Source: an uncultured Sulfitobacter sp.
GTDB taxonomy: Bacteria > Pseudomonadota > Alphaproteobacteria > Rhodobacterales > Rhodobacteraceae
Direction: 5' to 3'
Assembly: GCA_937138475.1 (NCBI GenBank)
Contig: CAKZPD010000028.1
Coordinates: 62,001 to 126,000 of the forward strand
DNA: 64,000 nucleotides
Shown here: one piece after another, positions 6,306 to 60,752 of the stretch
Layout: every line of letters starts with the position of its first letter
How positions within the stretch are numbered: the first letter of the stretch is position 1
Translations under genes and position numbers: made by a program
Notes under the pieces: model-generated
Database searches by the model: none
What the model was told of the DNA's origin: nothing
What the model saw: the letters and a program-made list of their open reading frames with translations, nothing else

Positions 6306-7832
6306 ATGGGCGCGCGTAAACCGGTGGTGTTGTGTATTCTTGACGGCTGGGGCCTGCGCGAGGAACGCGAAGGCAATGCCCCCTTGCTGGCGGATACGCC
6401 GCATATGGACCGGATCATGGCCGCGTGCCCGGCCGCAACCCTGACGACCTTTGGCCCGGATGTCGGCCTGCCGCGTGGGCAGATGGGCAATTCCGAGGTG
6501 GGGCACACCAATATCGGCGCAGGGCGTGTGGTGGCGATGGACCTGGGTCAGATTGATTTGGCCATCGAAGACGGAAGTTTTGACCAAAACAGCGCCCTTG
6601 TGACCTTTATTGATCAGCTAAAGCACAGCAAGGGCACGGCGCATTTGATGGGGCTGGCTTCGGATGGCGGGGTTCACGGGCACCAGGCGCATATGATTGC
6701 CGCCGTTCAGGCAATAACCGCCCAAGGCGTGCCGGTGGCGCTCCATGTGATCACCGATGGCCGCGATGTGGCACCGACCTCGGCGGCGGGGTTTCTTGAC
6801 GCGCTTGAGGGGGGCTTGCCGCAGGGTGCCCGTATCGCCAGCGTAACCGGCCGCTATTTTGCGTTGGATCGCGACAACCGTTGGGACCGTGTGGCGCAGG
6901 CCTATGAGGCCATGGTTCACGGGCGCGGGCAACAACACGCCGACGGGGCGGCGGCGGATGTGGTGCGCCGCGCCTATGCGGATGGGATCACGGATGAATT
7001 CCTGCCTGCCACGGTGATGAACGGATATGCGGGCGCACAGGCCGGCGATGGGTTCTTTTGCCTGAATTTCCGGGCCGACCGTGCCCGTGAAATTATGGCC
7101 GCTATCGGGGCGCCTGACTTTGATGCCTTTGATGCCGGCTCCCGCCCCAGTTGGAGCGCGGTCATGGGGATGGCCGGCTATTCGGACGATCATGCCAAAT
7201 ATATGACCACCATGTATCCGCGCGCGCCGTTGAAAAACACCTTGGGTGATTGGGTCGCGCAACATGGGCTGCGCCAGTTCCGTCTGGCTGAAACCGAAAA
7301 ATATCCGCATGTGACCTTCTTTTTGAATGGCGGGGAAGAGGTCTCGTTTCAGGGCGAGGATCGCTTTATGCCCAAGTCGCCGAACGTGGCGACCTATGAT
7401 TTACAGCCGGCCATGTCATCGGTGCAGGTGACGGATCGTTTCGTGGCAGCGATTGAGGATGGCTATGATCTGATTGTGACGAATTATGCCAATCCGGATA
7501 TGGTTGGGCATACCGGGGATCTGGCCGCCGCCATCGCCGCCTGCGAAGCAGTGGACCGCGGGCTGGGCCGGGTGCTTGAGGCGCTGGAAAAAGCGGGCGG
7601 CGTGATGATCGTGACCGCCGACCATGGCAATTGCGAAATGATGATTGATCCGGCCACCGGCGGCGCGCATACGGCGCATACCTTATCCCCCGTGCCCGTG
7701 ATATTGGTGGGCTCAGATCATCAGGGCGCGCGCCTGCGTTCTGGCCGCCTGGCGGATATCGCGCCAACTCTTTTGACATTGCTGGGTCTGCCATGCCCGG
7801 CGGAAATGACGGGAAAATGTCTGATTTCCTAA
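6306..7832 (+). CDS. gpmI: 2,3-bisphosphoglycerate-independent phosphoglycerate mutase
   Basis: Interconverts 3- and 2-phosphoglycerate in glycolysis and gluconeogenesis with two Mn ions. The 508-aa product has the standard length. It starts with [14 protein letters not shown] (metal-binding Asp), carries the phosphoserine loop [16 protein letters not shown] at about residue 60, the segment [14 protein letters not shown], and the C-terminal metal site [11 protein letters not shown] with [13 protein letters not shown]. It overlaps the following EnvC-like gene by 16 nt, which suggests one transcript gpmI-envC-like-ctpA, an order I recall as common in alphaproteobacteria. Confidence 0.97.
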
Positions 7833-8947
7833 AAGCCCTGTTGATTGCGGCGCTTTGGTCTGCGGCGCCTGCGTGGTCTGCCCCCCAGACCGAGGCGCGC
7901 GCCGCGCTGACCCGTCTTGAGGCCGCGATTGCCACGCTTGATCAGGCCGATGCAGCCGAGGACCGGATCGCGGCCTTGACGCAAACGATTTTGGCGATGG
8001 AGGACGGGTTGGCCGCCATGCGCAGCAGTCAGCGCCAGGTGGCACAGCACGAGGTTCGGTTGGCCCAGGGGCTAAGCGCGGAAAACCAGCGTCTGGTGCC
8101 GCTTTTGCAATTGATGCAGCGCATCGGGGATCCGGCCCAACCCGCCGGGTTGATCCACCCCGGCGGGGCCCTGGGCGCGGCGCGGGCGCAAAACCTGCTG
8201 GATGCGATCACACCGCAATTGGCCCAAACCAGCCAACGCCTGAGCGCCGAGATGGACGATCTGCATATCCTGCGCGCCCTTCAGCAGCAGGCAGTGCAGC
8301 GGATGCAAGATGGCGCTGAGGCGGTGCAAAAGGCCCGCGCCGATTTGGTGCAGGCCATGGCCGATCGGTCCCAATTGCCCCGGCGTTTTGTGGTTGATCC
8401 CATTCGGGCTGCTGTGCTGATTGCCTCGACTGAAACACTCGATGGGTTCGCCAGCGGGCTCAGCCAGATCACGGCCCCCGTTGATGGCGCCAGCGCCGCG
8501 CCCGCACCGCCGGCTGCGCGGCCCGCCGGGGATCTGCCGCTGCCGGCCCTGGCCCGGATTGTGTCGCCCAGCAGCGTGGACAGCGAACGCCCCGGTCTTT
8601 GGCTGTCTGTGCCGCCTGCGGCGCTGATCACCGCCCCGGTGGTGGCGACGATTCGCTTTGCCGGGCCGCTGTTTGACCTTGGCAATGTCGTGATCCTTGA
8701 ACCCCGCCCGCACAGCTTGCTTATCTTTGCCGGGCTTGACACAATCCTGACCACCGCTGGCGAAACGGTTTTGCCCGGCAGCCCCTTGGGGTTTATGGCG
8801 GATTTGAGCGAAAAAAACGCGGCAAAGCGGTCAACTGATGGTGATGGCACTGGAACCCTGTCTACAGACGCGCTCTATATAGAAGTCAGACAGGACGATA
8901 AGCCCGTGGACCCGGCGATCTGGTTCCAGACAGACAAGGATGGATAA
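7817..8947 (+). CDS. EnvC-like murein hydrolase activator (degenerate M23/LytM domain)
   Basis: Periplasmic protein of about 376 aa, probably an activator of amidases that split septal peptidoglycan. The N terminus ([22 protein letters not shown]) is a signal peptide. A long coiled coil follows (about residues 30-190, many Ala/Gln/Leu heptads), then a Pro/Ala linker and a LytM-like fold from about 240. The HxxxD and HxH zinc ligands of active M23 peptidases are not visible (GNVVILEPRPHSLL and LYIEVRQDDKP stand at the expected places), as in EnvC-type activators. I chose the ATG at 7817 because it gives a clean signal peptide; an ATG at 7793 adds eight residues. Confidence 0.8.
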   Translation: MSDFLKALLIAALWSAAPAWSAPQTEARAALTRLEAAIATLDQADAAEDRIAALTQTILAMEDGLAAMRSSQRQVAQHEVRLAQGLSAENQRLVPLLQLMQRIGDPAQPAGLIHPGGALGAARAQNLLDAITPQLAQTSQRLSAEMDDLHILRALQQQAVQRMQDGAEAVQKARADLVQAMADRSQLPRRFVVDPIRAAVLIASTETLDGFASGLSQITAPVDGASAAPAPPAARPAGDLPLPALARIVSPSSVDSERPGLWLSVPPAALITAPVVATIRFAGPLFDLGNVVILEPRPHSLLIFAGLDTILTTAGETVLPGSPLGFMADLSEKNAAKRSTDGDGTGTLSTDALYIEVRQDDKPVDPAIWFQTDKDG

Positions 8948-8952
8948 ACTCA

Positions 8953-10284
8953 ATGAAGAAATTTGTCATGGCCGCGCTGGGCGGAACCTTGGCCGGTGTC
9001 GTCGCAACGACGCAAATCGCCGGACCGCTGCTGGCGCAGGACACCAATGCCAACGCCAACGTCTACGAGCAGCTGGACCTGTTCGGCGACATCTTTGAAC
9101 GCATCCGCGCCCAATATGTAGAAGAGGTCGACGCCGGCAAACTGATCGAAGCGGCGATCAACGGTATGCTGACCTCTCTGGATCCGCATTCCAGCTATTT
9201 GTCGCCCGATGACGCGGCCCAGATGCGCGTGCAAACACGCGGCGAATTCGGTGGGCTTGGCATCGAAGTCACGCAGGAAGACGGCTTTGTCAAAGTGGTC
9301 TCGCCGATTGACGGCACACCCGCCGACGAGGCCGGCATCGAAGCCGGCGATTTCATCACCCATGTGGATGGCGAAACTGTCTTGGGCCTTAATCTGGACG
9401 AAGCGGTGGATCTGATGCGTGGGCCCGTCGGCTCCGAGATCGTCATCACCGTCGTGCGCGAAGGCGAAAGCGAACCGTTCGACGTGACCATCGTGCGCGA
9501 CACGATCAAACTGACAGCCGTGCGCACCCGCACCGAAGGCGAAACCATCGTGCTGCGCGTCACAACCTTTAACGATCAAACCTATCCAAACCTGAAGTCC
9601 GGCCTCGAAAAACAGATCCAAGAGGCCGGCGGCATCGACAAGATCAATGGCATTGTGGTCGATCTGCGCAACAATCCCGGCGGGCTGCTGACCCAGGCGA
9701 TCCGGGTGTCGGATGCCTTTCTTGAGGCCGGTGAAATCGTCAGCACCCGTGGGCGTGACCCGCAGGATGGCGATCGCTTCAACGCAACACCGGGCGATCT
9801 GGCTCAGGGCAAGCCGTTGGTCGTGCTGATCAATGGTGGCTCGGCCTCGGCCTCGGAAATCGTGGCCGGCGCGCTTCAGGATCATCGCCGCGCCATTGTC
9901 GTGGGCACCAAAAGCTTTGGCAAAGGTTCGGTGCAAACCGTGATGCCGCTGCGCAGCGACGGCGCCATGCGCTTGACGACCGCGCGCTACTATACGCCGT
10001 CAGGGCGCTCGATCCAGGCGCTTGGCGTATCCCCTGATATCGTGGTGGAACAGCCGCGCCGCCGCCCCGAGACCGAAGAGCAAAGCGATGCGCGCCCCTC
10101 GCGCTCCGAAGCAGATCTGCGCGGCAGCCTCAACAACGACAGCCTGACCGATGATGAGATCGAACAGATCGAAGCCGATCGCGCCAAGGCCGCCGCCGCC
10201 GCGGCACTGCGGCAAGAGGATTATCAACTGGCCTATGCCATCGACATCCTCAAGGGCCTGTCAAAGCTCGGCCCCTCGCGCTGA
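8953..10284 (+). CDS. ctpA: C-terminal processing peptidase, S41 family (CtpA)
   Basis: Periplasmic serine protease of 443 aa that trims or degrades envelope proteins. A signal peptide/anchor (MKKFVMAALGGTLAGVVATT) is followed by a helical domain, a PDZ domain (about 95-175, GGLGIEVTQEDGFVKV) and the S41 core. The catalytic Ser lies in GGSASASEIV and the Lys in GTKSFGKGSVQ. The C-terminal tail is charged and Ala-rich. It starts 5 nt after the EnvC-like gene, so the two are almost certainly cotranscribed. That matches the known link of Ctp proteases with regulators of murein hydrolases. Confidence 0.95.
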   Translation: MKKFVMAALGGTLAGVVATTQIAGPLLAQDTNANANVYEQLDLFGDIFERIRAQYVEEVDAGKLIEAAINGMLTSLDPHSSYLSPDDAAQMRVQTRGEFGGLGIEVTQEDGFVKVVSPIDGTPADEAGIEAGDFITHVDGETVLGLNLDEAVDLMRGPVGSEIVITVVREGESEPFDVTIVRDTIKLTAVRTRTEGETIVLRVTTFNDQTYPNLKSGLEKQIQEAGGIDKINGIVVDLRNNPGGLLTQAIRVSDAFLEAGEIVSTRGRDPQDGDRFNATPGDLAQGKPLVVLINGGSASASEIVAGALQDHRRAIVVGTKSFGKGSVQTVMPLRSDGAMRLTTARYYTPSGRSIQALGVSPDIVVEQPRRRPETEEQSDARPSRSEADLRGSLNNDSLTDDEIEQIEADRAKAAAAAALRQEDYQLAYAIDILKGLSKLGPSR

Positions 10285-10513: not shown

Positions 10514-12247
10514 TCAAAGCTCCATATAGCTGTGGCGTTCGTCTTTGCCGCCGGGGTGGGTCACAGCACCCAGATAGGTCGGTCCAACCAGCTTGGCATA
10601 TTTCCACAGCGCGCCCGAACCATAGATTGTCTCGCGTGGGCCGGACCATTCCGCCTTGCGTTGCGCCAGCTCGGCGTCGGTCAAATCGACGCTGATCGTG
10701 CCTTTGACCGCATCCAGCGTGATCATATCACCATTGCGGATCAAGGCGATGGGGCCGCCATGCGCCGCTTCGGGGCCGACATGGCCGACACAAAAGCCGC
10801 GCGTCGCGCCAGAAAAACGGCCATCGGTGATCAGCGCCACCTTCTTGCCCATCCCTTGCCCTGACAAGGCCGCCGTGGTGGCCAGCATCTCGCGCATACC
10901 TGGGCCGCCCGATGGGCCCTCGTTGCGGATCACGATCACTTCGCCTTCACAATAGGCGCGGTTCTTGACCGCCTCAAAGGCGTCCTCTTCGCACTCAAAG
11001 ACATTCGCCGGCCCGGTAAAGACGATGTCCTCTTCGGTCATTCCGGCGATTTTCACGATGGCGCCTTCGGGGGCCAAATTGCCTTTCAATCCGACAACAC
11101 CGCCGGTTTTGCTGATCGGGGTTTCAACCGGATAGATCACCCGGCCGTCGGCCTCGCGGTCGATCTTGTCCAGCTCTTCGCCCATGGAAAACCCGGTCGC
11201 GGTCATGCAATCCAGATGGATCAACCCGGCCTTGCGCAGCTCTTTCATCACTACGGGCACGCCGCCGGCTTCGTAAAGGTCTTTGGCCACATAGGCGCCG
11301 CCCGGCTTGAGATCGACAAAATAAGGTGTGTCGCGGAAAATTTCGCACACATCATCAAGGAAGAAATCAATCCCGGCCTCATGGGCCATGGCCGGAAGGT
11401 GCAAACCGGCATTGGTCGAACCGCCGGTGCAGGCGACGATCCGGGCCGCGTTCTCAAGGGATTGGCGGGTGACAATGTCACGGGCGCGGATGTTCTTTTC
11501 GATCAGGTTCATCACAGCAACGCCCGAAGCCTCGGCATAGGCATCGCGCGATTCATAGGGCGCCGGCGCGCCGGATGATTTGGGCAGGGCCAAGCCAATC
11601 GCCTCTGAAACACATGCCATGGTGTTGGCGGTGAATTGCCCGCCGCACGCCCCGGCCGAGGGGCAGGCCACGGCCTCGAGCTTTTCCAGCTCGCAGGTGG
11701 TCATATTGCCGGCCTGATGTTGGCCGACGGCCTCGAACACGTCTTGAACCGTGACATCCTTGCCATTCAGGCGGCCCGGCAGGATCGACCCGCCATAAAG
11801 AAAGACCGACGGCACATTCAGGCGGATCATCGCCATCATCATCCCCGGCAGGGATTTGTCGCATCCCGCCAGACCGACCAGCGCATCATAGCAATGGCCG
11901 CGCATGGTCAGTTCGACCGTATCGGCAATCGCCTCGCGCGAAGCAAGAGAAGAGCGCATCCCCTCGTGGCCCATGGCAATGCCGTCCGTGACGGTGATGG
12001 TGGTGAATTCGCGGGGCGTGCCTTTTGCGGCTTTGACGCCCATCTTGGCGGCTTGGGCCTGACGATTCAGCGCAATGTTACAAGGTGCAGCTTCGTTCCA
12101 GCAGGTCGCCACACCGACCAGCGGCTGATGAATTTCCTCTTCGGTCATCCCCATGGCATAGTAATAGGACCGATGCGGCGCGCGTGCTGGCCCTTCGGTA
12201 ACATGCCGGCTTGGCAATTTGGATTTGTCGAACGTAGAATTGGACAT
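10514..12247 (-). CDS. ilvD: Dihydroxy-acid dehydratase
   Basis: Dehydrates 2,3-dihydroxy acids to 2-oxo acids in valine, isoleucine and CoA synthesis, using an iron-sulfur cluster. The 577-aa product has cluster cysteines in [24 protein letters not shown] and ACTGGSTN, and the family segment [11 protein letters not shown]. The start ATG at 12247 has GAAGG upstream. It stands alone, convergent with ctpA and divergent from the CPBP protease gene. Confidence 0.97.
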
Positions 12248-12402
12248 AAGGGCAGACCTTCAGCTGAATGGATCGTCGCAACCGGAATAGCGGGCCAATA
12301 TCCGTGCTGCAAGGCTTTGACCGCCCCAAGCCGGTCTTTGCGCTTGATTTTGCAGACTTCGCCTCCTAGCTGAGCCAAACGACATCCCAAGCCGGAGCAA
12401 AG

Positions 12403-13290
12403 ATGCGCTATTTTGAGTATCAGCCACTGATTGATCAGGCACGGCCAAAGGCACAGCTTTGGCGCCTGATTTTGGGGCTGGGGTTGATTGTCGCAATCTA
12501 TGTGATGCTGGGACGCGGTGCGATGACCGTGCTGGGGATGGCCTTGGGCGACGCGGGGGGCGATCTTTACCGACATCTGCCGGCAGGGGGCAGCCCGCTG
12601 GCGATGTATGTGCTGTTGTTTGGGTTCGGATTGCTTGGCGTCGCGGTGGTTTGTGCCACGATGATTGTGCATGGTCGTGGGTTTGCGGGATTGATCGGTC
12701 CGCCGCGGCGCTTTTTGCGGCAGTTCGGGCGGGTCTGCGCGGGTCTTGTGGTGCTTTATGGGGCGGTGCTGGTGCTGCCCCCGTGGGATTTGGGTGCCCC
12801 GCTGGGCGCCAATTTGCCTGTCGCGCTTTGGCTGGGGCTTTTGCCTTTGTCCTTGGTGGCCGTCCTGGTGCAGGTCAGCGCAGAAGAGCTGCTGTTCCGC
12901 GGCTATCTGCAACAGCAGCTTGCCGCGCGGTTCAACGGCGCGTGGGTGTTCGTTCTGGTGCCGTCTGTGCTGTTTGGCCTTGGCCATTTCATGCCCGACC
13001 AAGCCGGCGACAACGCGGGCCTGATCGCGCTTTGGGCGATGGTTTTTGGGGTCCTGCTTGCGGATATCACCGCGCGCGCCGGAACGCTTGGCCCCGCGAT
13101 TGCGCTGCATTTTGTCAATAACATCACCGCGATTTTGATCATTTCTGTGCCAGACAGTTTGTCAGGTCTGGCGCTTTTTACCGGGCCGTTTGACATGAAC
13201 GACACCCAGGCCTTTCGGGCTTGGCTGCCGGTGGATTTCGCGTTGATGTGGCTAAGCTGGTTGGTGGCGCGCATTGCCATTCGCCGCTGA
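12403..13290 (+). CDS. CPBP family intramembrane metalloprotease
   Basis: A 295-aa polytopic membrane protein with about eight hydrophobic segments. The CPBP (CAAX-type/Abi) active site is complete: SAEELLFRGYLQQ supplies the Glu-Glu pair and Arg, FGLGHF supplies the first His, and LHFVNN the second His/Asn. The substrate is unknown; bacterial members act in processing of membrane-associated peptides. It is divergent from ilvD and precedes accD by 60 nt on the same strand, so it may be cotranscribed with accD-folC. Confidence 0.88.
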   Translation: MRYFEYQPLIDQARPKAQLWRLILGLGLIVAIYVMLGRGAMTVLGMALGDAGGDLYRHLPAGGSPLAMYVLLFGFGLLGVAVVCATMIVHGRGFAGLIGPPRRFLRQFGRVCAGLVVLYGAVLVLPPWDLGAPLGANLPVALWLGLLPLSLVAVLVQVSAEELLFRGYLQQQLAARFNGAWVFVLVPSVLFGLGHFMPDQAGDNAGLIALWAMVFGVLLADITARAGTLGPAIALHFVNNITAILIISVPDSLSGLALFTGPFDMNDTQAFRAWLPVDFALMWLSWLVARIAIRR

Positions 13291-15533: not shown

Positions 15534-16600
15534 AGGCCCCAGCCTTGCGATTGCATCTCGCGCAATCGCGAGGCGGTGCGCTCAAATTCAAAGGTGCCCT
15601 CGCCCTCAAGATACAGCATTTCCGGGGTGGCCGCCGCGGATGCGATCAGCCGCACCTTGGCCTCGTAAAGGGCATCAATCAAGGTCACAAAGCGCTTGGC
15701 CTCGTTGAAGTTGCTGCGCGACAGGGCCGGGATGTCATCCAACACCAAAACCCGCACCGCTTGCGCAATGGCCAGATAATCAGCCGGTCCCAGATGCGCG
15801 GCGCACAGCGTATGAAAGCGCGCGCGCGCGGCACCGTTGCGGAACTCTGGCAAAATCAGATCGCGCCCATTGACCCGCAACACCAGCGGATCACCCGTCC
15901 CCCCGGCCAGATCGCGCCAAATCGCGTCCATGGCTGCGCGGCTGTCTGCGTTGATCGGGGTGAAATAGACCGGGCTGCCACCCAAGCGGTCTTGCCGGTA
16001 ATCTGTGGGGCTGACCAATTCATGAATATCCAGATGTCGTTCAATCAACGCAATAAACGGCAAGAACAAATGCCGGTTCAGCCCGTCCTTATACAAATCC
16101 CCCGGCGCCCGGTTCGAGGTGGTGATCACCACCACACCTTGATCAAACAATGCCTGGAAAAGCCGCCCGACAATCATCGCATCCGTGATGTCTGACACCT
16201 GCATTTCGTCAAAGGCCAATAAACGCAGATCCGCCGCCACTTGCGCTGCAACCGGGGCAATCGCATCCTCTGCGCCGCTTTTGCGCACCTCGTGCATGGC
16301 GGCATGAATTTCTTGCATAAAGGCATGGAAATGCACCCGGCGCGCGGGGATCTCTCCCAAATGTTCAACGAATAAATCCATCAACATCGACTTGCCGCGC
16401 CCGACACCGCCCCAAAGATACAGCCCCTTGGGCGGCGCAGATGCCCGGCGGAACAACCCCTTTTTGCGGGGGGCAAGCAGCCCTTGGCGCAAGGCATCCA
16501 ACCGGGGCAAGATTGCGCGCTGCGCCGGATCGCTTTGCAAGGCGCCGCAGGCAATCTTTTGTTCATAAATATCCAAAAAACTTTCCATAGCCTTCGGCAT
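15530..16600 (-). CDS. zapE: Cell division protein ZapE (AFG1-like ATPase)
   Basis: AFG1/ZapE-type AAA ATPase of 356 aa. The Walker A loop is LWGGVGRGKSMLMD (about residue 60) and the Walker B is LLAFDEMQVSD. VVITTSNRAPGDLYKDGLNR is the sensor/arginine region. ZapE interacts with FtsZ in enterobacteria; mitochondrial AFG1 helps protein quality control, so the role here is inferred. The second in-frame ATG at 16588 is a possible start. It is divergent from the MFS gene. Confidence 0.93.
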   Translation of the reverse strand: MPKAMESFLDIYEQKIACGALQSDPAQRAILPRLDALRQGLLAPRKKGLFRRASAPPKGLYLWGGVGRGKSMLMDLFVEHLGEIPARRVHFHAFMQEIHAAMHEVRKSGAEDAIAPVAAQVAADLRLLAFDEMQVSDITDAMIVGRLFQALFDQGVVVITTSNRAPGDLYKDGLNRHLFLPFIALIERHLDIHELVSPTDYRQDRLGGSPVYFTPINADSRAAMDAIWRDLAGGTGDPLVLRVNGRDLILPEFRNGAARARFHTLCAAHLGPADYLAIAQAVRVLVLDDIPALSRSNFNEAKRFVTLIDALYEAKVRLIASAAATPEMLYLEGEGTFEFERTASRLREMQSQGWGL

Positions 16601-16672
16601 AGCTTGCCGTTCGCGGGGTGAAAAGATGCCCTTGCATCAATTTCCCTGATGGCGGGCTGAAAAATTGCTGAA

Positions 16673-16703
16673 TTGACGGAGCGGATGGAACCGGCAATAT
16701 AAC
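16673..16703 (+). promoter_or_regulatory. Probable sigma-70 promoter of the MFS gene
   Basis: TTGACG (16673-16678) and ATATAA/TATAAC (16697-16703) are spaced 18-19 nt apart, 23 nt upstream of the ATG at 16727, which has AAAGGA as ribosome-binding site. The match to the consensus is good for a GC-rich genome, but it is unproven. Confidence 0.5.
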
Positions 16704-16726
16704 GCGACTTTTTAAAGGACATTCCC

Positions 16727-17968
16727 ATGGAACACCGCGCACCGCTTTTTACCCCGGTTTTGATCGTGGGCTGTGTGATCATCATGGTCAGCTTTGCGGT
16801 GCGGGCGTCATTTGGGGTGTTTCAGATCCCCATCGCCGAAGAATTCGGCTGGTTGCGGGCCGAATTTTCCTTGGCGATTGCGATCCAAAACCTGGCATGG
16901 GGCATTGGCCAGCCGATATTTGGCGCCGTCGCCGAAAAGATTGGCGACCGGCGGGCGATTATCATCGGGGCGGTGGTTTATGCCCTTGGAATGATCTTGT
17001 CGGCCAATTCCGCGACACCTTTGGCCCATCAAGCCTATGCTTGGCTGGTGGGGTTTGGCATTGCCGGGACTGGCTTTGGCGTCATTCTGGCGGTGGTGGG
17101 GCGCGCGGCCTCGGCCGATAACCGCTCGATGGCCTTGGCCATCGCCACCGCCGCCGGCAGCGCCGGTCAGGTGGTCGGGGCGCCGGTGGCCGAATGGATG
17201 CTGGGCTTTTTGACCTGGCAGATGACCTTCACCGTCTTTGCCGGTGCGATTTTGGCACTGATCCTGACCTTGCCGCTGATGCGCGCGCCGCAGATTGCCA
17301 GCCGAACCGAGCTGGAGGAAACCCTGGGCGAGATCCTTGGCAAAGCCTTTCGCGATCCGTCCTATACGTTGATCTTTCTGGGGTTCTTTTCCTGCGGGTA
17401 TCAGCTGGCCTTTGTCACGGCGCATTTTCCCGCCTTCGTAACCGAGCTGTGTGGGCCGATTTTACCCGGCAGCTTGCTGCACAGCGCCGGGGTCACGACC
17501 ACTTCGGCGTTGGGCGCTGTGGCGATTTCGCTGATCGGGCTGGCCAATATTGCCGGGACGTTGTTGGCCGGCTGGGCGGGCAAGCGCTATTCCAAGAAAT
17601 ACCTTCTGGCAGGGATATATGCAGGGCGCACGATCGTTGCTGCGTTGTTTATCATGCTGCCGATCACACCGCTGAGCGTGATCGTGTTTTCCGTCGCGAT
17701 GGGGTCGTTGTGGTTGGCCACGGTGCCGCTGACCTCGGGGTTGGTCGCGCATATTTATGGCCTGCGCTATATGGGCACGCTTTATGGTATCGTGTTCTTC
17801 AGTCACCAGCTGGGCAGTTTCCTAGGGGTTTGGCTGGGGGGGCGCATGTATGACGTTTATGGCGATTACACCACGGTTTGGTGGATCGGTGTTGGCGTTG
17901 GCGCCTTTAGCGCGATTGTGCACCTGCCCATTCGAGAAAAACGGCTGGAAGGTCTGGCGATTGCCTAG
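16727..17968 (+). CDS. MFS transporter
   Basis: A 413-aa major facilitator with about 12 hydrophobic helices. The loop after helix 2 (GAVAEKIGDRRAIIIG) is the MFS signature between helices 2 and 3. The pattern resembles the monocarboxylate/oxalate-formate branch of MFS carriers, but the substrate cannot be read from sequence. The gene has its own promoter-like sequence and stands alone, convergent with the ornithine cyclodeaminase-like gene. Confidence 0.88.
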   Translation: MEHRAPLFTPVLIVGCVIIMVSFAVRASFGVFQIPIAEEFGWLRAEFSLAIAIQNLAWGIGQPIFGAVAEKIGDRRAIIIGAVVYALGMILSANSATPLAHQAYAWLVGFGIAGTGFGVILAVVGRAASADNRSMALAIATAAGSAGQVVGAPVAEWMLGFLTWQMTFTVFAGAILALILTLPLMRAPQIASRTELEETLGEILGKAFRDPSYTLIFLGFFSCGYQLAFVTAHFPAFVTELCGPILPGSLLHSAGVTTTSALGAVAISLIGLANIAGTLLAGWAGKRYSKKYLLAGIYAGRTIVAALFIMLPITPLSVIVFSVAMGSLWLATVPLTSGLVAHIYGLRYMGTLYGIVFFSHQLGSFLGVWLGGRMYDVYGDYTTVWWIGVGVGAFSAIVHLPIREKRLEGLAIA

Positions 17969-54429: not shown

Positions 54430-55287
54430 ATGAAAAAAGTTCTCTTCGCTACTACTGCCCTGATCGCCACAGCCGGCATGGCAGCAGCCGATATCAACCT
54501 GTCCGGCTACGGCCGTTTTGGTCTGAACCAGACAAAGTCTGGCGGCACAACAACATCCACGGTTGAAAACCGCATCAACGTAGACATCAAAGGCTCCGGT
54601 TCGAACGGCGACCTGTCTTGGGGTGGTAAACTGCGCATGCGTGGCTCCTCCGGTGCAGTCGCAACTTTGAACGCGCCTCAGGTTCACCTGACTTCGGGCA
54701 ACGTCACCATCTATGCCGGCAACCTGCCAGGCGTTCTGGACTCCATGCCTGGCGTATACGCGCCAACAGTTGGTTACACCGGTGGCAACTTTGCCAACAT
54801 GGTAACAGCCGGCGACAACCTGGCCTATTCGTCGACAGGCGCTGGCGCCAATGGCGTTCAGGTTAACTATTCGATGGGTGACATCTCGGTTGCGGCTTCG
54901 ACAGCTGACGGCGCAGGCGACACACAGTTCTCCGTTCAGTATTCTGCTGGCGCACTGACATTCGCTGCTGGTGTTCAGCAGGGTGACGTTGCGGCTGACG
55001 ACGTAACAGCGATCACAGTTGGCTACTCGATGGGCGACATGTCCTTCACCGCCGGCTATGGCGACAACAACGGCACCACACGCAACGCCGTAACTGTTGG
55101 CTACAGCGTATCTGCTGACACATCCGTGACTGTTTATGCTGCAAACGTCAGCACCGCAGGCACAGACACAGCCTTTGGTCTGGGCGCCAAGCACAGCCTG
55201 GGTGGCGGTGCTTCCCTGGGTGTCGGCTTTGAAGAAAACACTGCCGGCGCACAGCGTGCCGAAATCGGTGTATCTTTGGGCTTCTAA
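54430..55287 (+). CDS. Porin (first of an inverted pair)
   Basis: A 285-aa outer-membrane porin of the small Rhodobacter type. The signal peptide is MKKVLFATTALIATAGMAAA, cut before DINLSGYGRFG. The mature part has alternating beta strands (FTAGYGDNNG, AFGLGAKHSLGGG) and ends with the C-terminal Phe in GVSLGF that marks outer-membrane barrels. GAGGGA lies 6 nt before the ATG. Third-position use differs from its neighbours (many GGT/GCT/ACA), typical of a highly expressed gene. It has a close paralogue in inverted orientation at 59874-60752. Confidence 0.93.
   Translation: MKKVLFATTALIATAGMAAADINLSGYGRFGLNQTKSGGTTTSTVENRINVDIKGSGSNGDLSWGGKLRMRGSSGAVATLNAPQVHLTSGNVTIYAGNLPGVLDSMPGVYAPTVGYTGGNFANMVTAGDNLAYSSTGAGANGVQVNYSMGDISVAASTADGAGDTQFSVQYSAGALTFAAGVQQGDVAADDVTAITVGYSMGDMSFTAGYGDNNGTTRNAVTVGYSVSADTSVTVYAANVSTAGTDTAFGLGAKHSLGGGASLGVGFEENTAGAQRAEIGVSLGF
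54443..54531 (+). repeat. Left arm of an 89-bp perfect inverted repeat (porin 5' ends)
   Basis: This 89-bp stretch is identical to the reverse complement of 60633-60721. It covers codons for the end of the signal peptide to the first strand (LFATTAL through RFGLNQ). The two porin genes diverge clearly outside it, mostly at synonymous sites, so the identity points to gene conversion or recombination. Confidence 0.85.
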
Positions 55288-55311
55288 TTCCTGAACAGGA
55301 ATTAAGAAGTG

Positions 55312-55340
55312 GGCTGAGGGGCTTTGCCTCTCAGCCTTTT
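55312..55340 (+). terminator. Rho-independent terminator of the first porin
   Basis: GGCTGAGgggctttgcctCTCAGCC, then TTTT, 25 nt after the stop codon. The following 55345-55560 is strikingly AT-rich for this window and contains AAAATACACC at 55371 but no gene. Confidence 0.88.
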
Positions 55341-55562
55341 CCTGTTTCAACGCGAATCATTTTTTGCGTCAAAATACACCAGAAAGGGGAAGTGCTTAGA
55401 TTTTAATATACTTTGGGGTGTAAATTTAACCAGTTTGACTGCTGTTTTACCGTTTCTTCTTGGCTTTCAGTATAATTTGCCAAAGAAACCCCTGCGGCTT
55501 GGCGCTTTGTTTTTGTGATGCTCTGCCGTGCTCGACCAGCAGTTCGTTATCGGAGCGTAATC

Positions 55563-56531
55563 ATGTTTAATCTGTTTTCCCGGCCTCATGCCGTCAAAGC
55601 CGTGCCAGATACCGATCTGGAGGCGTTTTTCCACGATCACTACTATCCCTATGCCTGCGCCACCAAAAAGCGGCCGCGCTTTGATCTGTTGGTGTATCAG
55701 CGACATATCGCCCCCGGCCTTGGCGGGCTTGGCCTGCGCCAGATTTCGCTGCGCGAGATCGACAAATGGAAGCTGGGCCAGCTGCAATTGGGGCTGAAGA
55801 ATTCCACCATCAACAAGCATATCTTTTTGCTGAACCAATTGATGAAACTGGCCAGCAACTGGGGCTTTACCGATCCAAATCATCATCTTCTGCTCAAGCT
55901 GAAAAAGCTGCCGATCGGCGATTATTCGCAGAAATTCCTGACACAGCAGGAAATCGGCGCGCTGTTGCGGGGCTGTCAAAAAAGCCATCACCCGTTTTTG
56001 TTCCATGTTGCCAAGGTGTTGCTGCTGACCGGCGCGCGGATCGGTGAATTGCGCAACGCGGTGTGGGGCGATATCGACGAAGGCACCTGTATGTGGCGGG
56101 TGCCGCTGTCCAAAAGCGGCCGGTCGCGCGATATCTTTCTAAGCCAGGATGCCCTTGCCACCTTCCGCGAAGTCCGTCGCGAGGCGGCCTATCTGGGGCT
56201 GGGCACCCAGCCGCGCGATTTCGTGTTCACCAACCCGCGCAGCAAGACCAAATACGACAGCTTTTATGCCGCCTGGTATCGCGTGCTTGAGGCCGAGGGC
56301 CTGCCGACCATACGCATCCACGATCTGCGCCACACCTATGCCAGCATCCTTATCAACAACGGTGTCAGCATTTACGAGGTGCAGCGCCTGCTGGGCCATT
56401 CCAACATCACCATGACCCAGCGCTATGCGCATCTGCTGAAAAACAAGCTGCACCGCCGCACCGAGGTTGTCTCGAATGCCATTCTCAGCGGGCACGTCAA
56501 GCCGCCCGGCGGTCATCACCCGCAGCTTTAG
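55563..56531 (+). CDS. Site-specific tyrosine recombinase (orphan integrase)
   Basis: A 322-aa tyrosine recombinase with an N-terminal SAM-like core-binding domain (about 20-115) and a complete catalytic domain: Arg in LLTGARIGELRNAVW, Lys in LSKSGRSRDIFL, HDLRHTYASIL, and LGHSNITMTQRYAHLL with the nucleophilic Tyr. GGAG lies 8 nt before the ATG at 55563; the frame extends 16 codons upstream without support. No phage, plasmid or excisionase gene lies nearby and no tRNA is adjacent. It ends convergent with the cenR-like gene. Confidence 0.93.
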   Translation: MFNLFSRPHAVKAVPDTDLEAFFHDHYYPYACATKKRPRFDLLVYQRHIAPGLGGLGLRQISLREIDKWKLGQLQLGLKNSTINKHIFLLNQLMKLASNWGFTDPNHHLLLKLKKLPIGDYSQKFLTQQEIGALLRGCQKSHHPFLFHVAKVLLLTGARIGELRNAVWGDIDEGTCMWRVPLSKSGRSRDIFLSQDALATFREVRREAAYLGLGTQPRDFVFTNPRSKTKYDSFYAAWYRVLEAEGLPTIRIHDLRHTYASILINNGVSIYEVQRLLGHSNITMTQRYAHLLKNKLHRRTEVVSNAILSGHVKPPGGHHPQL

Positions 56532-56534
56532 GCG

Positions 56535-56561
56535 AAAAAAGACCGGGCACAAGGCCCGGTC
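56535..56561 (-). terminator. Terminator of the cenR-like transcript
   Basis: On the minus strand GACCGGGC-cttgt-GCCCGGTC is followed by TTTTTT (plus strand A tract at 56535-56540). It lies 141 nt beyond the stop of the response regulator and 4 nt after the integrase stop, so it ends the regulator transcript. Confidence 0.85.
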
Positions 56562-56701
56562 AGTCCAACAGGGAGGTGCATGTCATAACCCGGACATGCG
56601 GCGGGGTCTTCAGGAAGGGACAGGTCATGAAAACCCTGTCACACCCCCCGCATAAGCGCTGTTCGTTAATAAACTGCCAACGCCAGCAAAGTTTGGCGCC
56701 G

Positions 56702-57388
56702 TCAGGTCATCAAGCGATAGCCCCCCGATTCCGTCACCAAAAGCTGCACATTGGAGGGATCAGGTTCGATTTTCTGCCGCAGACGATAGATGTGTGTCTC
56801 GAGGGTGTGGGTCGTGACCCCGGCGTTATAGCCCCAAACCTCGTGGAGCAGCACATCGCGCGCCACAACACCTTCGGTGGACCGATAGAGAAACTTGAGG
56901 ATGTTGGTTTCCTTTTCGGTCAGGCGCACCTTTTTGTCATCCTCGGTAATCAGCATCTTCATTGCCGGTTTGAACGTATAAGGCCCCATCTGGAAAACCG
57001 CGTCCTCGGATTGTTCGTGTTGGCGCAGTTGCGCGCGAATACGGGCCAAAAGAACCGGGAATTTGAAGGGCTTAGACACATAATCATTGGCGCCGGCGTC
57101 CAGCCCAAGGATGGTGTCGGAATCGCTGTCATGGGCGGTCAGCATCACAATCGGGCTTTTGACGCCCTGTTTGCGCATCAGGCGGCACAGCTCGCGGCCA
57201 TCGGTATCGGGCAGGCCGACATCCAGGATCACCAGATCATAGATCGCCTCTTTGGCGCGCACCATTGCATCCGCCCCGGTCGCGGCCTCAAAAACGTCAA
57301 AATCCTCTGTTAAAACAAGCTGTTCGCTTAGGGCTTCGCGAAGATCATCATCATCGTCGACCAGCAAAATCTTTTTAAGTTGCGCCAT
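56702..57388 (-). CDS. cenR: OmpR/PhoB family response regulator, probable CenR
   Basis: A 228-aa response regulator. The receiver domain has ILLVDDDDDLREAL (acidic pocket), phosphoryl Asp in LVILDVGLPDTDG, Thr in IVMLTAHDSD and Lys in YVSKPFKFPVLLARIRAQLRQHEQSEDAVF. The winged helix follows (KKVRLTEKETNILKFLYRS, EVWGYNAGVTTHTLETHIYRLRQKI). The LRQHEQSEDAVF linker is as I remember CenR, the essential envelope regulator of Caulobacter and Rhodobacter, so that name is likely but not certain. The start is ATG at 57388 with AAGGAG 6 nt upstream. The kinase CenK is not in the window. Confidence 0.9.
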   Translation of the reverse strand: MAQLKKILLVDDDDDLREALSEQLVLTEDFDVFEAATGADAMVRAKEAIYDLVILDVGLPDTDGRELCRLMRKQGVKSPIVMLTAHDSDSDTILGLDAGANDYVSKPFKFPVLLARIRAQLRQHEQSEDAVFQMGPYTFKPAMKMLITEDDKKVRLTEKETNILKFLYRSTEGVVARDVLLHEVWGYNAGVTTHTLETHIYRLRQKIEPDPSNVQLLVTESGGYRLMT

Positions 57389-57399
57389 CGTTATCTCCT

Positions 57400-57418
57400 T
57401 CACATTTCTGAAATGTGA
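57400..57418. promoter_or_regulatory. 19-bp perfect palindrome in the cenR leader
   Basis: TCACATTTCTGAAATGTGA is a perfect 9-bp inverted repeat with a single-base centre, 11 nt upstream of the cenR start codon and next to its ribosome-binding site. The one-base centre favours a protein-binding DNA operator over an RNA hairpin. Confidence 0.6.
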
Positions 57419-57545
57419 GCTTTGAAAGATACTAAGGCAAGCGCCGAGGCGGGAATTTCACGGGCTCGTGTCGAATGACCCGGCAAATGTTTCAATTCCG
57501 GTCGATTTGCCCTAGATCAGACAGGAAAAAAGCGGACACTGTAAC

Positions 57546-58634
57546 ATGATGAACCTTGCACCCAGCATAATTGAACGCCTTGCCCGCGCCCGTGCCGATC
57601 TGCGGATGGGGGTGCCTGTGGTGTTGTCCGGGGCGCGAACGATTTTGGTTGCAGCAGTGGAAACCGTTAATAATCAGCGCCTTAATCAGATAATGTCGAT
57701 GGGGTCTGCACAGGTGGTGATCACCGCGCGCCGGGCGGAAACCCTGAAGGCCCGCGCCTATGATGGGGATATCGCGCGGGCCATGTTGCCCAAGGGCGCT
57801 GATTTGCGGTGGCTGCGCGCGGTCGCGGATCCGGCCGATGACTTGATGGCGCCGATGAAGGGGCCGCTGGATTGCGCGCGTGGCGGCGATGTCACCGCCG
57901 AACGGCTGGCGATCCAGCTGATAAAATCCGCCCAGCTTTTGCCCGCAGCATTGGTGGTTGAGATCACCAAGACCCGTGAAAAGTTTGAAAATCAGGGTCT
58001 TACAGTGATTTCCGTGGCGCAGGCCACCCCGCATTTGCGCGCCAACAGCCCGCTGCATCCGGTGGTTCATGCCCGCTTGCCGATGCGCGCCTCTGAGAGC
58101 GGGCGGCTGCATATTTTCCGCCCCGAGGATGGCGCAGATGAACATTATGCCATTGAAATTGGCCGCCCCGATCGCAGCCAGCCGGTGCTGGCGCGCTTGC
58201 ATTCGGCCTGTTTCACCGGCGATGTGCTGGGCAGCCTGAAATGCGACTGTGGTCCGCAGCTTGATGCGGCGCTGGCCCAGATGGCAGCCGAAGGGACTGG
58301 CCTGCTGCTGTATATGAACCAAGAGGGGCGCGGCATCGGCCTTGCCAATAAGATGCGCGCATATTCCCTGCAAGATCAAGGGTTTGATACGGTCGAGGCC
58401 AATCACCGACTAGGGTTCGAGGACGACGAGCGGGATTTCAGATTGGGGGCGGATATCCTGCGTGCCTTGGGGTTTTCCCAGGTGCGGCTGTTGACCAACA
58501 ACCCCCGCAAGGTGGCAATGATGCAATCCAGCGGCATCACCGTCGCGCAGCGGGTGCCCCTGCGGGTGGGAAAAACCCCGCAAAACGCCGCCTATCTGGC
58601 GACAAAAGCCAATAAATCCGGGCATTTGATGTGA
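57546..58634 (+). CDS. ribA: GTP cyclohydrolase II with degenerate N-terminal extension
   Basis: First step of riboflavin synthesis: GTP to the diaminopyrimidine phosphate. The 362-aa protein has the GCH II domain from about residue 165: LHSACFTGDVLGSLKCDCGPQLD (zinc Cys), YMNQEGRGIGLANKMRAYSLQ and LLTNNPRKVAMM. The N-terminal ~150 aa (LARARADLRMGVPVVLSGA, VVITARRAETLK) looks like a remnant DHBP synthase (RibB) domain without its acidic DDExRENEGD motif, so RibB activity must come from elsewhere. The stop overlaps the next gene (GTGA). Confidence 0.93.
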   Translation: MMNLAPSIIERLARARADLRMGVPVVLSGARTILVAAVETVNNQRLNQIMSMGSAQVVITARRAETLKARAYDGDIARAMLPKGADLRWLRAVADPADDLMAPMKGPLDCARGGDVTAERLAIQLIKSAQLLPAALVVEITKTREKFENQGLTVISVAQATPHLRANSPLHPVVHARLPMRASESGRLHIFRPEDGADEHYAIEIGRPDRSQPVLARLHSACFTGDVLGSLKCDCGPQLDAALAQMAAEGTGLLLYMNQEGRGIGLANKMRAYSLQDQGFDTVEANHRLGFEDDERDFRLGADILRALGFSQVRLLTNNPRKVAMMQSSGITVAQRVPLRVGKTPQNAAYLATKANKSGHLM

Positions 58635-59146
58635 CCCCGTATGATTTGGTCCTGACCCCTCGGGGCCTGCGGTTTATGGGGCGCCTTTACCCATGCAGCA
58701 TCGGCAAGGGAGGGCCCAGCCCCGACAAGCACGAGGGGGACGGCGCGACGCCCTGCGGGGTGCACCGCATTGTTGGAATGCTGTATCGCCCTGACCGGAT
58801 GCCGGCGCCCGCGCCCTGGGCTGTGCCCATCGGCCCGCGCGATTTATGGTCAGACGATCCGACCCTGCCGGGGTATAACCGCCATGTAAAAGCCCCCTTT
58901 GCCGGCAGCCACGAACGCCTGCGCCGCGCCGATCCCTTGTATGATCTGGTCTTGTTGACCGATTGGAACTGGCCTGATGCGCAGCCGGGGCGCGGGTCGG
59001 CGATCTTTATCCATCAGTGGCGCCGGCCCGGTTTCCCGACCGAAGGGTGCCTGGGGTTGTCACGTCAGAATTTGCGTTATATTTCAACGCATATTGGCAT
59101 TGGATCGCGGTTTATTGTGCCACCGTTTCCCGCGCTCCGAAAATAG
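58631..59146 (+). CDS. L,D-transpeptidase (YkuD) family protein without signal peptide
   Basis: A 171-aa YkuD-fold protein. The catalytic His and Cys are in FIHQWRRPGFPTEGCLGLS near the C terminus, and the N terminus YDLVLTPRGLRFMGRLYPCSIGKGG matches the fold. No signal peptide or membrane helix is seen, although L,D-transpeptidases usually act in the periplasm. It starts with GTG overlapping ribA, so they are cotranscribed. The 3' end overlaps the 3' end of yggS by 35 nt on the opposite strand. Confidence 0.85.
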   Translation: MTPYDLVLTPRGLRFMGRLYPCSIGKGGPSPDKHEGDGATPCGVHRIVGMLYRPDRMPAPAPWAVPIGPRDLWSDDPTLPGYNRHVKAPFAGSHERLRRADPLYDLVLLTDWNWPDAQPGRGSAIFIHQWRRPGFPTEGCLGLSRQNLRYISTHIGIGSRFIVPPFPALRK

Positions 59147-59771
59147 CGGATCCAACCCGAACATGGGTTGCGCCAAGGGCAATGGCGCGGGTGAAATCGC
59201 TGCTCATTCCCATGCTCAGGCCGGTCAGGCCATTGCGGGCGGCGATTTTCGCCAAGAGCGCAAAATGCAAGGACGCCTCTTCGGACACCGGCGGAATACA
59301 CATCAATCCGCGCACGGGCAGATCCATATTCAGACACTCTTTGATAAAGGCGTCTGCCTCGCCCGGCAGCACCCCGGCCTTTTGCGGCTCTTCTCCGGTG
59401 TTGATTTGAATGAATAAATCGGGGCAATGCCCGATTTCTTGGGCAAGGCGGGCAAAGGTGGCGGCCAGTTTGGGGCGGTCCAGCGAATGGATGGCCTGAA
59501 ACAATTCAAAGGCCTGGCGGGCTTTGTTGGTTTGCACCGGGCCAATCAGATGCAAATCAATCCCGTCAAAGCGTTGCCGAAAATCTGGCCATTTGCCTGC
59601 CGCCTCTTGCACACGGTTTTCGCCGAATACCCGATGGCCCTGATCCAGAATATGCGCGACGCGGTCGTTCGGTTGCACTTTGGACACCGCGATCAATGTA
59701 ACCGCGCCGGCCGGCCGGCCGGCGGCGGCTTCTGCCTTTGCGATTTCGTCCTGAATTTCCGTCAATGCCAT
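59112..59771 (-). CDS. YggS/PROSC family pyridoxal 5'-phosphate-binding protein
   Basis: A 219-aa PLP-homeostasis protein. The PLP Lys lies in LIAVSKVQPNDRV (about residue 32), followed by FGENRVQEAAGKW, LHLIGPVQTNKARQAF and the C-terminal phosphate site LSMGMSSDFTRAIALGATHVRVGSAIFG. It keeps free PLP low; no enzyme reaction is known. The ATG at 59771 starts the conserved region. It lies next to the second porin on the same strand. Confidence 0.95.
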   Translation of the reverse strand: MALTEIQDEIAKAEAAAGRPAGAVTLIAVSKVQPNDRVAHILDQGHRVFGENRVQEAAGKWPDFRQRFDGIDLHLIGPVQTNKARQAFELFQAIHSLDRPKLAATFARLAQEIGHCPDLFIQINTGEEPQKAGVLPGEADAFIKECLNMDLPVRGLMCIPPVSEEASLHFALLAKIAARNGLTGLSMGMSSDFTRAIALGATHVRVGSAIFGARETVAQ

Positions 59772-59873
59772 TGGTCGATCCCTTTTGCTTTGGCCCCAAA
59801 AACACCAGTTTGCGGCAAAAGAAAAGGGGCAGGCCCTGCGGCCCACCCCTTCCCAATGTGGATTGAAACTGGC

Positions 59874-60752
59874 TTAGAAGCCGAATTTCACACCGATTTC
59901 CGCGCGCTGTGTGCCCGCAGTGTTTTCTTCGATGCCTGCGCCAACGGAAACACCGCCGCCCAGGCTGTGGTTGGCGCCCAGGCCAAAGGCTGTGTCGGTG
60001 CCGGCTGTGGACACGTCAGCAACGTAAACGGTGACAGATGTGTCGGCCGATACGTTATAGCCCAAGGTCAAAGCGTTGCGCTTGGTGCCGTTGTTGTCGC
60101 CGTAACCGGCGGTGAAGGACATATCGCCCATCGAATAGCCAACTGTGACGGCTGTTACGTCATCAGCGGCAACGTCACCCTGCTGAACACCAGCAGCGAA
60201 TGTCAGGTTGCCGGCCGAATAAGCAACGGTCAGCTGGTGATCGCCAGCGCCATCAGCTGTTGCGGCAGATACGGTCAGATCGCCCATGACATAGTTTACC
60301 TGAACGCCGTTTGCGCCAGCGCCGGTCGACGAATAGGCCAGGTTGTCGCCTGATGTGACGATGTTCGCAAAGTTACCGCCTGTGTAACCTACGGTTGGGG
60401 CATAGACACCTGGCATGGATTCCAGTGGGCCAGGGATGTTACCCGCATAAACTGTAACGTTGCCCGAGCCGATGTGAACTTGGCCGCCGCTCAGTGTTGC
60501 TGTCGCGCCACCGGCTGTCCGCAGACGGACCTTGCCGCCCCAGCTCAGGTTGCCGTTTGTGCCGGAACCTTTGATGTCGATGTTGACGCGGTTTTCAGTC
60601 GCAGTCGAGGACACACCACCGGATGGTTTCGACTGGTTCAGACCAAAACGGCCGTAGCCGGACAGGTTGATATCGGCTGCTGCCATGCCGGCTGTGGCGA
60701 TCAGGGCAGTAGTAGCGAAGAAACCTTGTTCAATTCGGGCAAGGTAATTCAT
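59874..60752 (-). CDS. Porin paralogue with altered translation start
   Basis: A 292-aa barrel protein that closely resembles the porin at 54430 (from FATTALIATAGMAAAD on, most residues match; it ends in GVKFGF). The normal start has been lost: where the other gene has ATG-AAA-AAA-GTT, this one has ATT-GAA-CAA-GGT, and the frame reaches an upstream ATG only by adding MNYLARIEQG. No ribosome-binding site precedes that ATG; AAGGAGA lies about 35 nt upstream, too far. The resulting signal peptide has no net positive n-region. It may be poorly expressed or silent. Confidence 0.75.
   Translation of the reverse strand: MNYLARIEQGFFATTALIATAGMAAADINLSGYGRFGLNQSKPSGGVSSTATENRVNIDIKGSGTNGNLSWGGKVRLRTAGGATATLSGGQVHIGSGNVTVYAGNIPGPLESMPGVYAPTVGYTGGNFANIVTSGDNLAYSSTGAGANGVQVNYVMGDLTVSAATADGAGDHQLTVAYSAGNLTFAAGVQQGDVAADDVTAVTVGYSMGDMSFTAGYGDNNGTKRNALTLGYNVSADTSVTVYVADVSTAGTDTAFGLGANHSLGGGVSVGAGIEENTAGTQRAEIGVKFGF
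60633..60721 (-). repeat. Right arm of the 89-bp perfect inverted repeat
   Basis: Reverse complement of 54443-54531, in the 5' end of the second porin. The two arms are about 6.1 kb apart in inverted orientation; homologous exchange between them would invert the segment with the integrase, cenR-like gene, ribA and yggS. Confidence 0.85.

Follow-up and report, generated by a model that had tools for sequence, protein, structure and literature searches.

The porin locus

The subject of this study is a stretch of 64,000 nucleotides from an uncultured Sulfitobacter species (contig CAKZPD010000028.1, positions 62,001 to 126,000; the whole stretch is called the window below), and within it a pair of porin genes that enclose a gene for a tyrosine recombinase and may form a switch between two porins. 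The window lies on contig C28 of a 2.8 Mb assembly (G000), and the genes of the locus are ordered lptE (-), porin A (+), integrase (+), cenR (-), ribA (+), ykuD (+), yggS (-), porin B (-), and xth (+). Porin A (54430-55287, + strand) and porin B (59874-60736, - strand, within an open reading frame at 59874-60752) are convergent and both match Pfam Porin_4, with E values of 4e-17 and 5e-19, respectively. A profile built from these porins matches the solved porin 2POR at E 1e-40; Porin_2 (PF02530) was rejected as the porin family, as it has no match in the genome.

A preliminary description of this DNA had noted two related porins facing each other about 6 kb apart, 89 bp of perfect inverted identity where the two genes begin, synonymous divergence elsewhere, and an enclosed segment with an intact integrase, cenR, ribA, an L,D-transpeptidase-like gene, and yggS in that order, all of which proved correct. 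The arms of the 89-bp tract, at 54443-54531 (+) and 60633-60721 (-), match exactly and fall in codons 5-34 of porin A, within a broader alignment of 103 nt at 95% identity. The second-longest exact stretch between the two genes is 38 bp, and most of the remainder, a stretch of 627 nt, aligns at 79% identity. Past the signal peptide the proportion of synonymous sites that differ (pS) is 0.51, with synonymous divergence (dS) of 0.85 and nonsynonymous divergence (dN) of 0.14. Since about half of the synonymous sites differ outside the tract, its identity is not due to chance or protein constraint alone.

The sequences 5' of the tract are not alike. Porin A has its own ATG and the upstream region on the lptE side, with a ribosome-binding-like GAGGGA followed by ATGAAAAAAGTTCTC, and its body is not linked to yggS. 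Porin B is the body linked to yggS, with an intact frame of 281 codons counted from the point where similarity to porin A begins; upstream of that point its DNA is unrelated to that of porin A and has neither GAGGGA nor ATGAAAAAAGTTCTC. The porin B reading frame opens at an unrelated ATG, near which no ribosome-binding sequence is visible. A scan for sigma-70 promoters found three sites, against 3.5 in shuffled sequences, with none before either porin, and was not used as evidence. A strong terminator-like hairpin with a 12-bp stem lies directly 3' of porin A (55311-55337), which makes separate transcription of the integrase probable.

Gene order in relatives

In relatives the corresponding region reads leuS (-), lptE (-), porin (+), yggS (+), ykuD (-), ribA (-), cenR (+), xth (+), trxA (+), and lon (+), mostly with a single porin, although some loci have tandem copies. 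The order lptE or leuS (-), porin (+), yggS (+) is found in 79 of 80 loci from named relatives, and the eightieth starts at a contig end just before the porin. Beyond yggS, cenR (+) is present in all 68 of those loci that include cenR, and the clade of the window recombinase is represented in none of the 80. Five loci (L039, L093, L109, L111, and L112) have tandem direct porins between lptE and yggS and no clade recombinase in the locus; in L039, L093, L109, and L111 these porins have their own starts.

Compared with this order, the block from cenR through porin B is reversed in the window. It comprises cenR (56702-57388, -; Pfam Response_reg and Trans_reg_C, the gene name being that of the preliminary description), a ribA-type GTP cyclohydrolase II (57546-58634, +), a YkuD L,D-transpeptidase-like gene (58631-59146, +), yggS (59112-59780, -; Ala_racemase_N domain), which is the ancestral downstream neighbour of the porin, and porin B itself. 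Judged by gene order, cenR, ribA, YkuD, and yggS are ancestral neighbours that were carried along as passengers in an inversion that broke the DNA on one side in the 5' end of the porin. The preliminary description had suggested both the inversion and a comparison of porin order in related genomes, and the inversion is thus real in evolutionary terms. The reversal identifies porin B as the ancestral body, and porin A together with the integrase as the extra part. A flip between the two tracts would restore the ancestral order and place porin B behind the promoter; porin A, now silent, and the integrase would then be flanked by cenR and xth. In one other genome (G128:C1, locus L170, at about 7971-8297), a fragment of a clade integrase is flanked by these same two genes, which is where the recombinase would be expected if the window were un-inverted.

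The recombinase and its relatives

The integrase gene (55563-56531, +) is intact and encodes a protein with a Phage_integrase domain (PF00589, E 1e-30). Residues R159, K184, H253, R256, H279, and Y288, which we take to be the catalytic residues of tyrosine recombinases, are invariant in 18 aligned sequences including the window integrase, which thus has the R-K-H-R-H/W-Y pattern of that family. The NCBIfam models closest to it are XerA/XerD, yet it scores far under their curated cut-offs; against the XerC and XerD models TIGR02224 and TIGR02225 it reaches 72 and 84 bits, where the cut-offs are 335 and 330, and so does not qualify as a XerC/XerD housekeeping recombinase. Two other loci in the same genome match it at 29% identity.

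The family set consisted of 394 genomes, including that of the window. Close relatives of the window integrase (E <= 7e-68, 41-58% identity) were found at 17 loci in 16 of the 393 other genomes, after which the matches drop to E 3e-31. A porin open reading frame lies within 0.5 kb of the recombinase at 16 of these 17 loci, and the contig of the seventeenth starts inside a porin. Weaker integrase matches served as a control: at 13 such loci, which include the clade relic in G128, no porin was found within 1.5 kb. Among 385 class-wide genomes, the clade at E <= 1e-45 was found only in that of the window. Two genomes have more than one clade integrase: G312 has two along with three porins, and G141 (locus L163) has two integrase genes (8335-9297 and 11852-12454) between direct-orientation porins whose 5' ends have 74 bp in common.

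An integrase beside a gene of this kind could also belong to a mobile cassette, in which the recombinase and a start-less porin integrate at the signal-peptide region of porins and inversion is a by-product. The silent porin and recombinase are located differently in different genera, as a cassette would be, and the direct repeats of G168 and G141 would allow excision of a circle. Against this, the lptE-lon interval of the window is made up of ancestral chromosomal genes, and in seven proteins of that interval scanned with Pfam no transfer or phage gene was found besides the integrase. The window has a single tRNA gene, at 1961. No integrase match in 72,556 plasmids reaches 60% identity (the 20 matches listed are 30-31% identical), a scan of viral contigs for close relatives gave one partial match at 39%, and matches in PHROGs are to integrase or unknown families only. 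With no close relative in the plasmids or viral contigs, a prophage or plasmid origin of the integrase was rejected. In addition, porin pairs on the same contig are inverted in nine of 11 cases, and inverted pairs would not excise; the distance between partners ranges from about 6 kb up to roughly 0.76 Mb in G392, if the chromosome of the latter is circular. A mobile cassette is therefore a very improbable account of the locus.

A shared core in start-bearing and start-less porins

Below, E denotes the porin with a start and S a start-less porin of the same genome. As a rule, in genomes with the recombinase, E has a ribosome-binding region and a ATGAAAAAGGTTCTC-like start, mostly beside lptE, and S has neither; in G168 both porin copies have a start. 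The point at which S becomes similar to E varies by only a few bases and lies at codon 5-6 of the signal peptide. Sixteen E-S pairs from 15 genomes were compared, and in 14 of them exact identity has its left edge 2-7 bp before codon 6, the exceptions being G407 (9 bp) and G247 (12 bp). The exact identity around this point varies by pair from 8 to 89 bp; a segment of 7 bp (-2 to +4) is identical between E and S in 15 of the 16 pairs, with one mismatch in G407. In the window this segment is TCTTCGC, at 54443-54449 (+) in porin A and 60715-60721 (-) in porin B, and it is the predicted crossover core, a prediction based on the identity in 15 pairs and on imperfect inverted arms at the silent sites.

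Where E and S have a residue in common, their codons also agree at 104 of 117 core sites (89%), 104 of 144 sites in codons 13-24, and 1527 of 2448 sites beyond (16 pairs, excluding G168 and G128, with G166 compared over only 49 codons). The difference between core and rest has a Fisher p of 4e-10, although the codons are not fully independent. In control porin paralogues, which have their own starts and lie at loci with no intact clade recombinase, agreement is 19 of 49 (39%) in the core and 891 of 1557 in the rest (nine pairs from five loci, excluding tandem locus L112), so that outside the core the controls come close to the E-S pairs. Within genomes, core mismatches number five, against a mean of 30 and a minimum of nine in 20,000 permutations; these used the 11 pairs with a FATTAL-type core, excluding G172, G247, G141, G069, G168, G128, and the second silent copy of G312. 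Together, the paralogue control and the permutation rule out chance similarity arising from signal-peptide conservation.

The sequence to the left of the core at silent sites, GAAnnnAGTnTC, tends to recur across genera although it is outside the homologous porin sequence. It pairs imperfectly, as an inverted repeat, with the sequence to the right, and the best-scoring spacer between these arms is 7 bp and corresponds to the shared segment. The consensus was drawn from 24 silent sites, of which ten are from one genus and the G392 site is counted twice, and many spacings were tried; the symmetry of the site around the core is thus no more than suggestive.

Two sets of related sequences lie outside these comparisons. 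Locus L113 (G029:C68), with porins at 6726-7670 (+) and 12259-13128 (-), has a second, inverted porin near yggS that does not have the usual start. No clade recombinase was found in G029, which has a distant integrase at 15841-17130, and the start-less porin becomes similar to the expressed one only deeper in the gene, near codon 16. Porin-like matches of about 55-70 residues occur in one genus, at G392:C1:1934886-1935062, G419:C1:905971, G421:C6:216386, G423:C57:29326, and G428:C58:16937.

Two arrangements among recombinase genomes

Arrangements were assigned from the positions of leuS, yggS, and the porins in 25 genomes with the recombinase. The body linked to yggS has the start in nine (G407, G178, G172, G024, G392, G420, G418, G423, and G247), here called the ancestral state, with 2-5 kb intervening before yggS in G178, G418, G423, and G024. 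The body linked to yggS is start-less in eight (G000, G282, G011, G258, G166, G312, G422, and G427), the alternative state, with about 2.3 kb intervening in G282 and G166; the assignment of G166 joins contigs C26 and C273, whose ends overlap by exactly 127 bases. Both states occur within one genus, ancestral in G392, G418, G420, and G423 and alternative in G422 and G427.

The recombinase gene has one of two positions. In the first architecture it is divergent on the left arm of the silent porin, in the ancestral state in G392, G420, G418, G423, and G247 and in the alternative state in G011, G258, G166, G312, G422, and G427. In the second it follows the alternative body and moves together with it, in the ancestral state in G407, G178, G172, and G024 and in the alternative state in G000 and G282. 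The position in each classified genome matches that predicted for exchange at the core.

In four of the 25 genomes (G166:C273, G426:C195, G429:C23, and G153:C72) a contig ends no more than about 100 bp from the core, where 0.66 such genomes would be expected (Poisson P 0.005). These ends may reflect mixed orientations in the sequenced populations, but the count is post hoc, uses rounded contig numbers, and is not main evidence.

The occurrence of the two states also bears on whether the window records a one-time inversion that became fixed, leaving porin B as a decaying pseudogene. Porin B is missing the usual start and this assembly has a single orientation, as would be expected of such an event; however, the frame of porin B is intact, its dN/dS relative to porin A is 0.17, and many genera share the arrangement, in both states. 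More generally, each of the 14 silent copies long enough to judge has an open reading frame, and ten pairs give pairwise dN/dS values of 0.08-0.44. Such frames and values would be expected of silent copies that are occasionally expressed, and a fixed inversion with a decaying copy is the least probable of the explanations weighed here.

Relationships among porin bodies

A tree was built from 52 porin bodies, excluding two short rows, the rows of G128 and G029, and one wrongly oriented row of G153. Some body lineages appear from this tree to be expressed in one species and silent in another: the E body of G422 groups with the S body of G427 (support 100/98), the E body of G418 groups with the start-less copy of G426 (100/100), for which the left side ends at a contig end after 17 bases, and the E body of G427 groups with the silent bodies of G418, G423, and G426 (99/92).

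The tree also contains an argument that homologous recombination by RecA, with gene conversion between duplicated porins, produced both the inversion and the tract, and that the integrase is a bystander. In 12 genomes the E and S bodies are sisters, as they would be after conversion or duplication; exact identity at the core is variable in length, from 8 to 89 bp, and 89 bp is enough for some homologous exchange. RecA alone accounts for the tract but not for the linkage of recombinase and porin across genera (16 of 17 loci), the left edge at nearly the same codon in different genera, or the paralogue control, in which pairs with no intact recombinase nearby do not have the core identity. Moreover, exact core identity is only about 10-36 bp in G312, G392, G011, G166, and others, despite inverted or switched partners. 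RecA acting alone is thus unlikely. The preliminary description had left the choice between integrase and RecA open; the integrase is the likelier agent because its clade is linked to start-less porins, because the 7-bp core is shared, and because both states exist in relatives, although its catalytic role is a presumption.

Proposed mechanism

From these comparisons, it is likely that a dedicated Xer-like tyrosine recombinase exchanges porin bodies behind one promoter and start by site-specific recombination. The expression site on the lptE side would supply the promoter, ribosome-binding site, ATG, and first four codons, while the second porin, usually inverted, would begin at the core within its signal-peptide codons and be silent. 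The recombinase would cross over at the 7-bp core in both copies, presumably cutting at TCTTCGC in the window, and the DNA between the cores would invert, so that the two porin bodies trade places behind the single promoter. In the window, the switch would be in the non-ancestral position, with body A expressed and body B, linked to yggS, silent. The preliminary description had proposed an ON/OFF pair; one good start and one porin without were indeed found, but the arrangement is better described as a swap of two bodies behind one promoter.

What can be read directly from the DNA is the inverted order, the missing start, the shared core, the linkage of recombinase and porin across genera, and the presence of both states in relatives. 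Catalysis of the exchange by the recombinase, and reversibility of the switch in living populations, are inferred. Porin B is presumably unexpressed, its apparent absence of a promoter being judged by sequence. The identity of 89 bp exceeds what a recombinase site needs, and the excess is read as homologous conversion riding on the same site.

Several observations weigh against this mechanism. The E and S bodies of the same genome are well-supported sisters in the 12 genomes mentioned, and weakly so in G141, which suggests that duplication or conversion renews the silent bodies; pure site-specific exchange explains neither this renewal nor the length of the 89-bp identity. Eight of the 25 recombinase genomes misfit the two states or could not be placed. 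Among these, G168 and G141 have direct repeats, and G168 has two good starts; the start-bearing porin is divergent from yggS in G141, G069, and G153; and the loci of G030, G419, G426, and G429 are incomplete. Both states were never observed in any single strain. The site symmetry is weak, most so at the expression site, and was found after many spacings were tried. At the core itself, G407 differs by one base, G069 shares little more than the core (a run of -3 to +5), and the second silent copy of G312 has three mismatches in an 18-base core. In-frame ATG codons upstream in the silent copies of G392 and G420 and in porin B mean that these may be translated. Finally, the control genomes were scanned for the recombinase at the locus level only, and one of them, G128, has the relic.

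If the mechanism is correct, then it would provide alphaproteobacteria with a surface-variation device that switches whole porin bodies heritably, explain a class of orphan integrases, and predict assembly break points and the origin of large inversions. Porins are frequent phage receptors and set the permeability of the outer membrane, and the benefit could be surface variation such as escape from phages or predators, or changed permeability. To our knowledge, such devices are known mainly from host-associated bacteria. The comparisons lean towards a broader reading, in which a porin-specialised recombinase family, found in the samples only in Rhodobacteraceae (in the broad sense), acts within signal-peptide codons and flips segments of 6 kb to hundreds of kb, so that any one cell lineage shows one of several porin bodies. 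This would amount to a reversible one-promoter porin wardrobe for free-living bacteria, with evasion of phages or predators as its probable use. The literature searched, which mostly excludes subscription papers and preprints, yielded no account of inversion-driven porin swapping in this group, and such a report may be in print elsewhere.

Comparison with known systems

Two systems in other bacteria resemble the locus in part. In Campylobacter fetus, S-layer genes (sapA) with a common 5' region are exchanged behind one promoter by inversion, a process that is RecA-dependent and uses long 5' homology. Inversion behind one promoter would be common to both systems; the difference is the dedicated recombinase clade described here, as we know of no such clade for sapA. 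Brucella omp2a/omp2b is an inverted porin pair in an alphaproteobacterium that undergoes gene conversion; however, these porins are of the Porin_2 family (PF02530), which has no match in the window genome, and we know of no integrase between them.

The closest parallels are in mycoplasmas. The vsa locus of Mycoplasma pulmonis (recombinase HvsR) is described as using site-specific inversion to link an expression site, consisting of a promoter, ribosome-binding site, and N-terminal coding DNA, to promoterless 3' parts of silent surface genes, with a tyrosine-recombinase-like gene nearby (PMC2268961, PMC4534519). On that description, vsa and the porin locus are alike in having one expression site, silent copies, inversion, and a tyrosine recombinase nearby. 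They differ in that the vsa genes encode mycoplasma lipoproteins and the expression site supplies 714 nt of coding sequence, while the genes here encode alphaproteobacterial porins and about four codons are supplied, the site is inside the signal peptide, and the partners are 6 kb to hundreds of kb apart. The vpma locus of Mycoplasma agalactiae (recombinase Xer1) is described as having a single promoter to which silent genes are joined by inversion, with an adjacent recombinase that is essential (PMC2268961). The single promoter, the silent genes linked by inversion, and the recombinase beside the locus are shared with the porin system; the proposed vpma sites are in the 5' untranslated region before the start codons, whereas the predicted crossover here is in coding sequence and the silent copies are start-less.

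Three features of vsa and vpma have counterparts at the porin loci: one start-bearing expression site with other copies that are start-less (the exceptions being the second copy of G168 and the in-frame ATG codons of G392, G420, and the window), a common site in E and S (15 of 16 pairs, and 104 of 117 core codons against 19 of 49 in controls) with a presumed role in crossover, and a tyrosine recombinase gene at or near the locus. The proposed principle is that of vsa and vpma; what differs is the host group, the use of porins, the predicted crossover in signal-peptide codons, and the long distances between partners.

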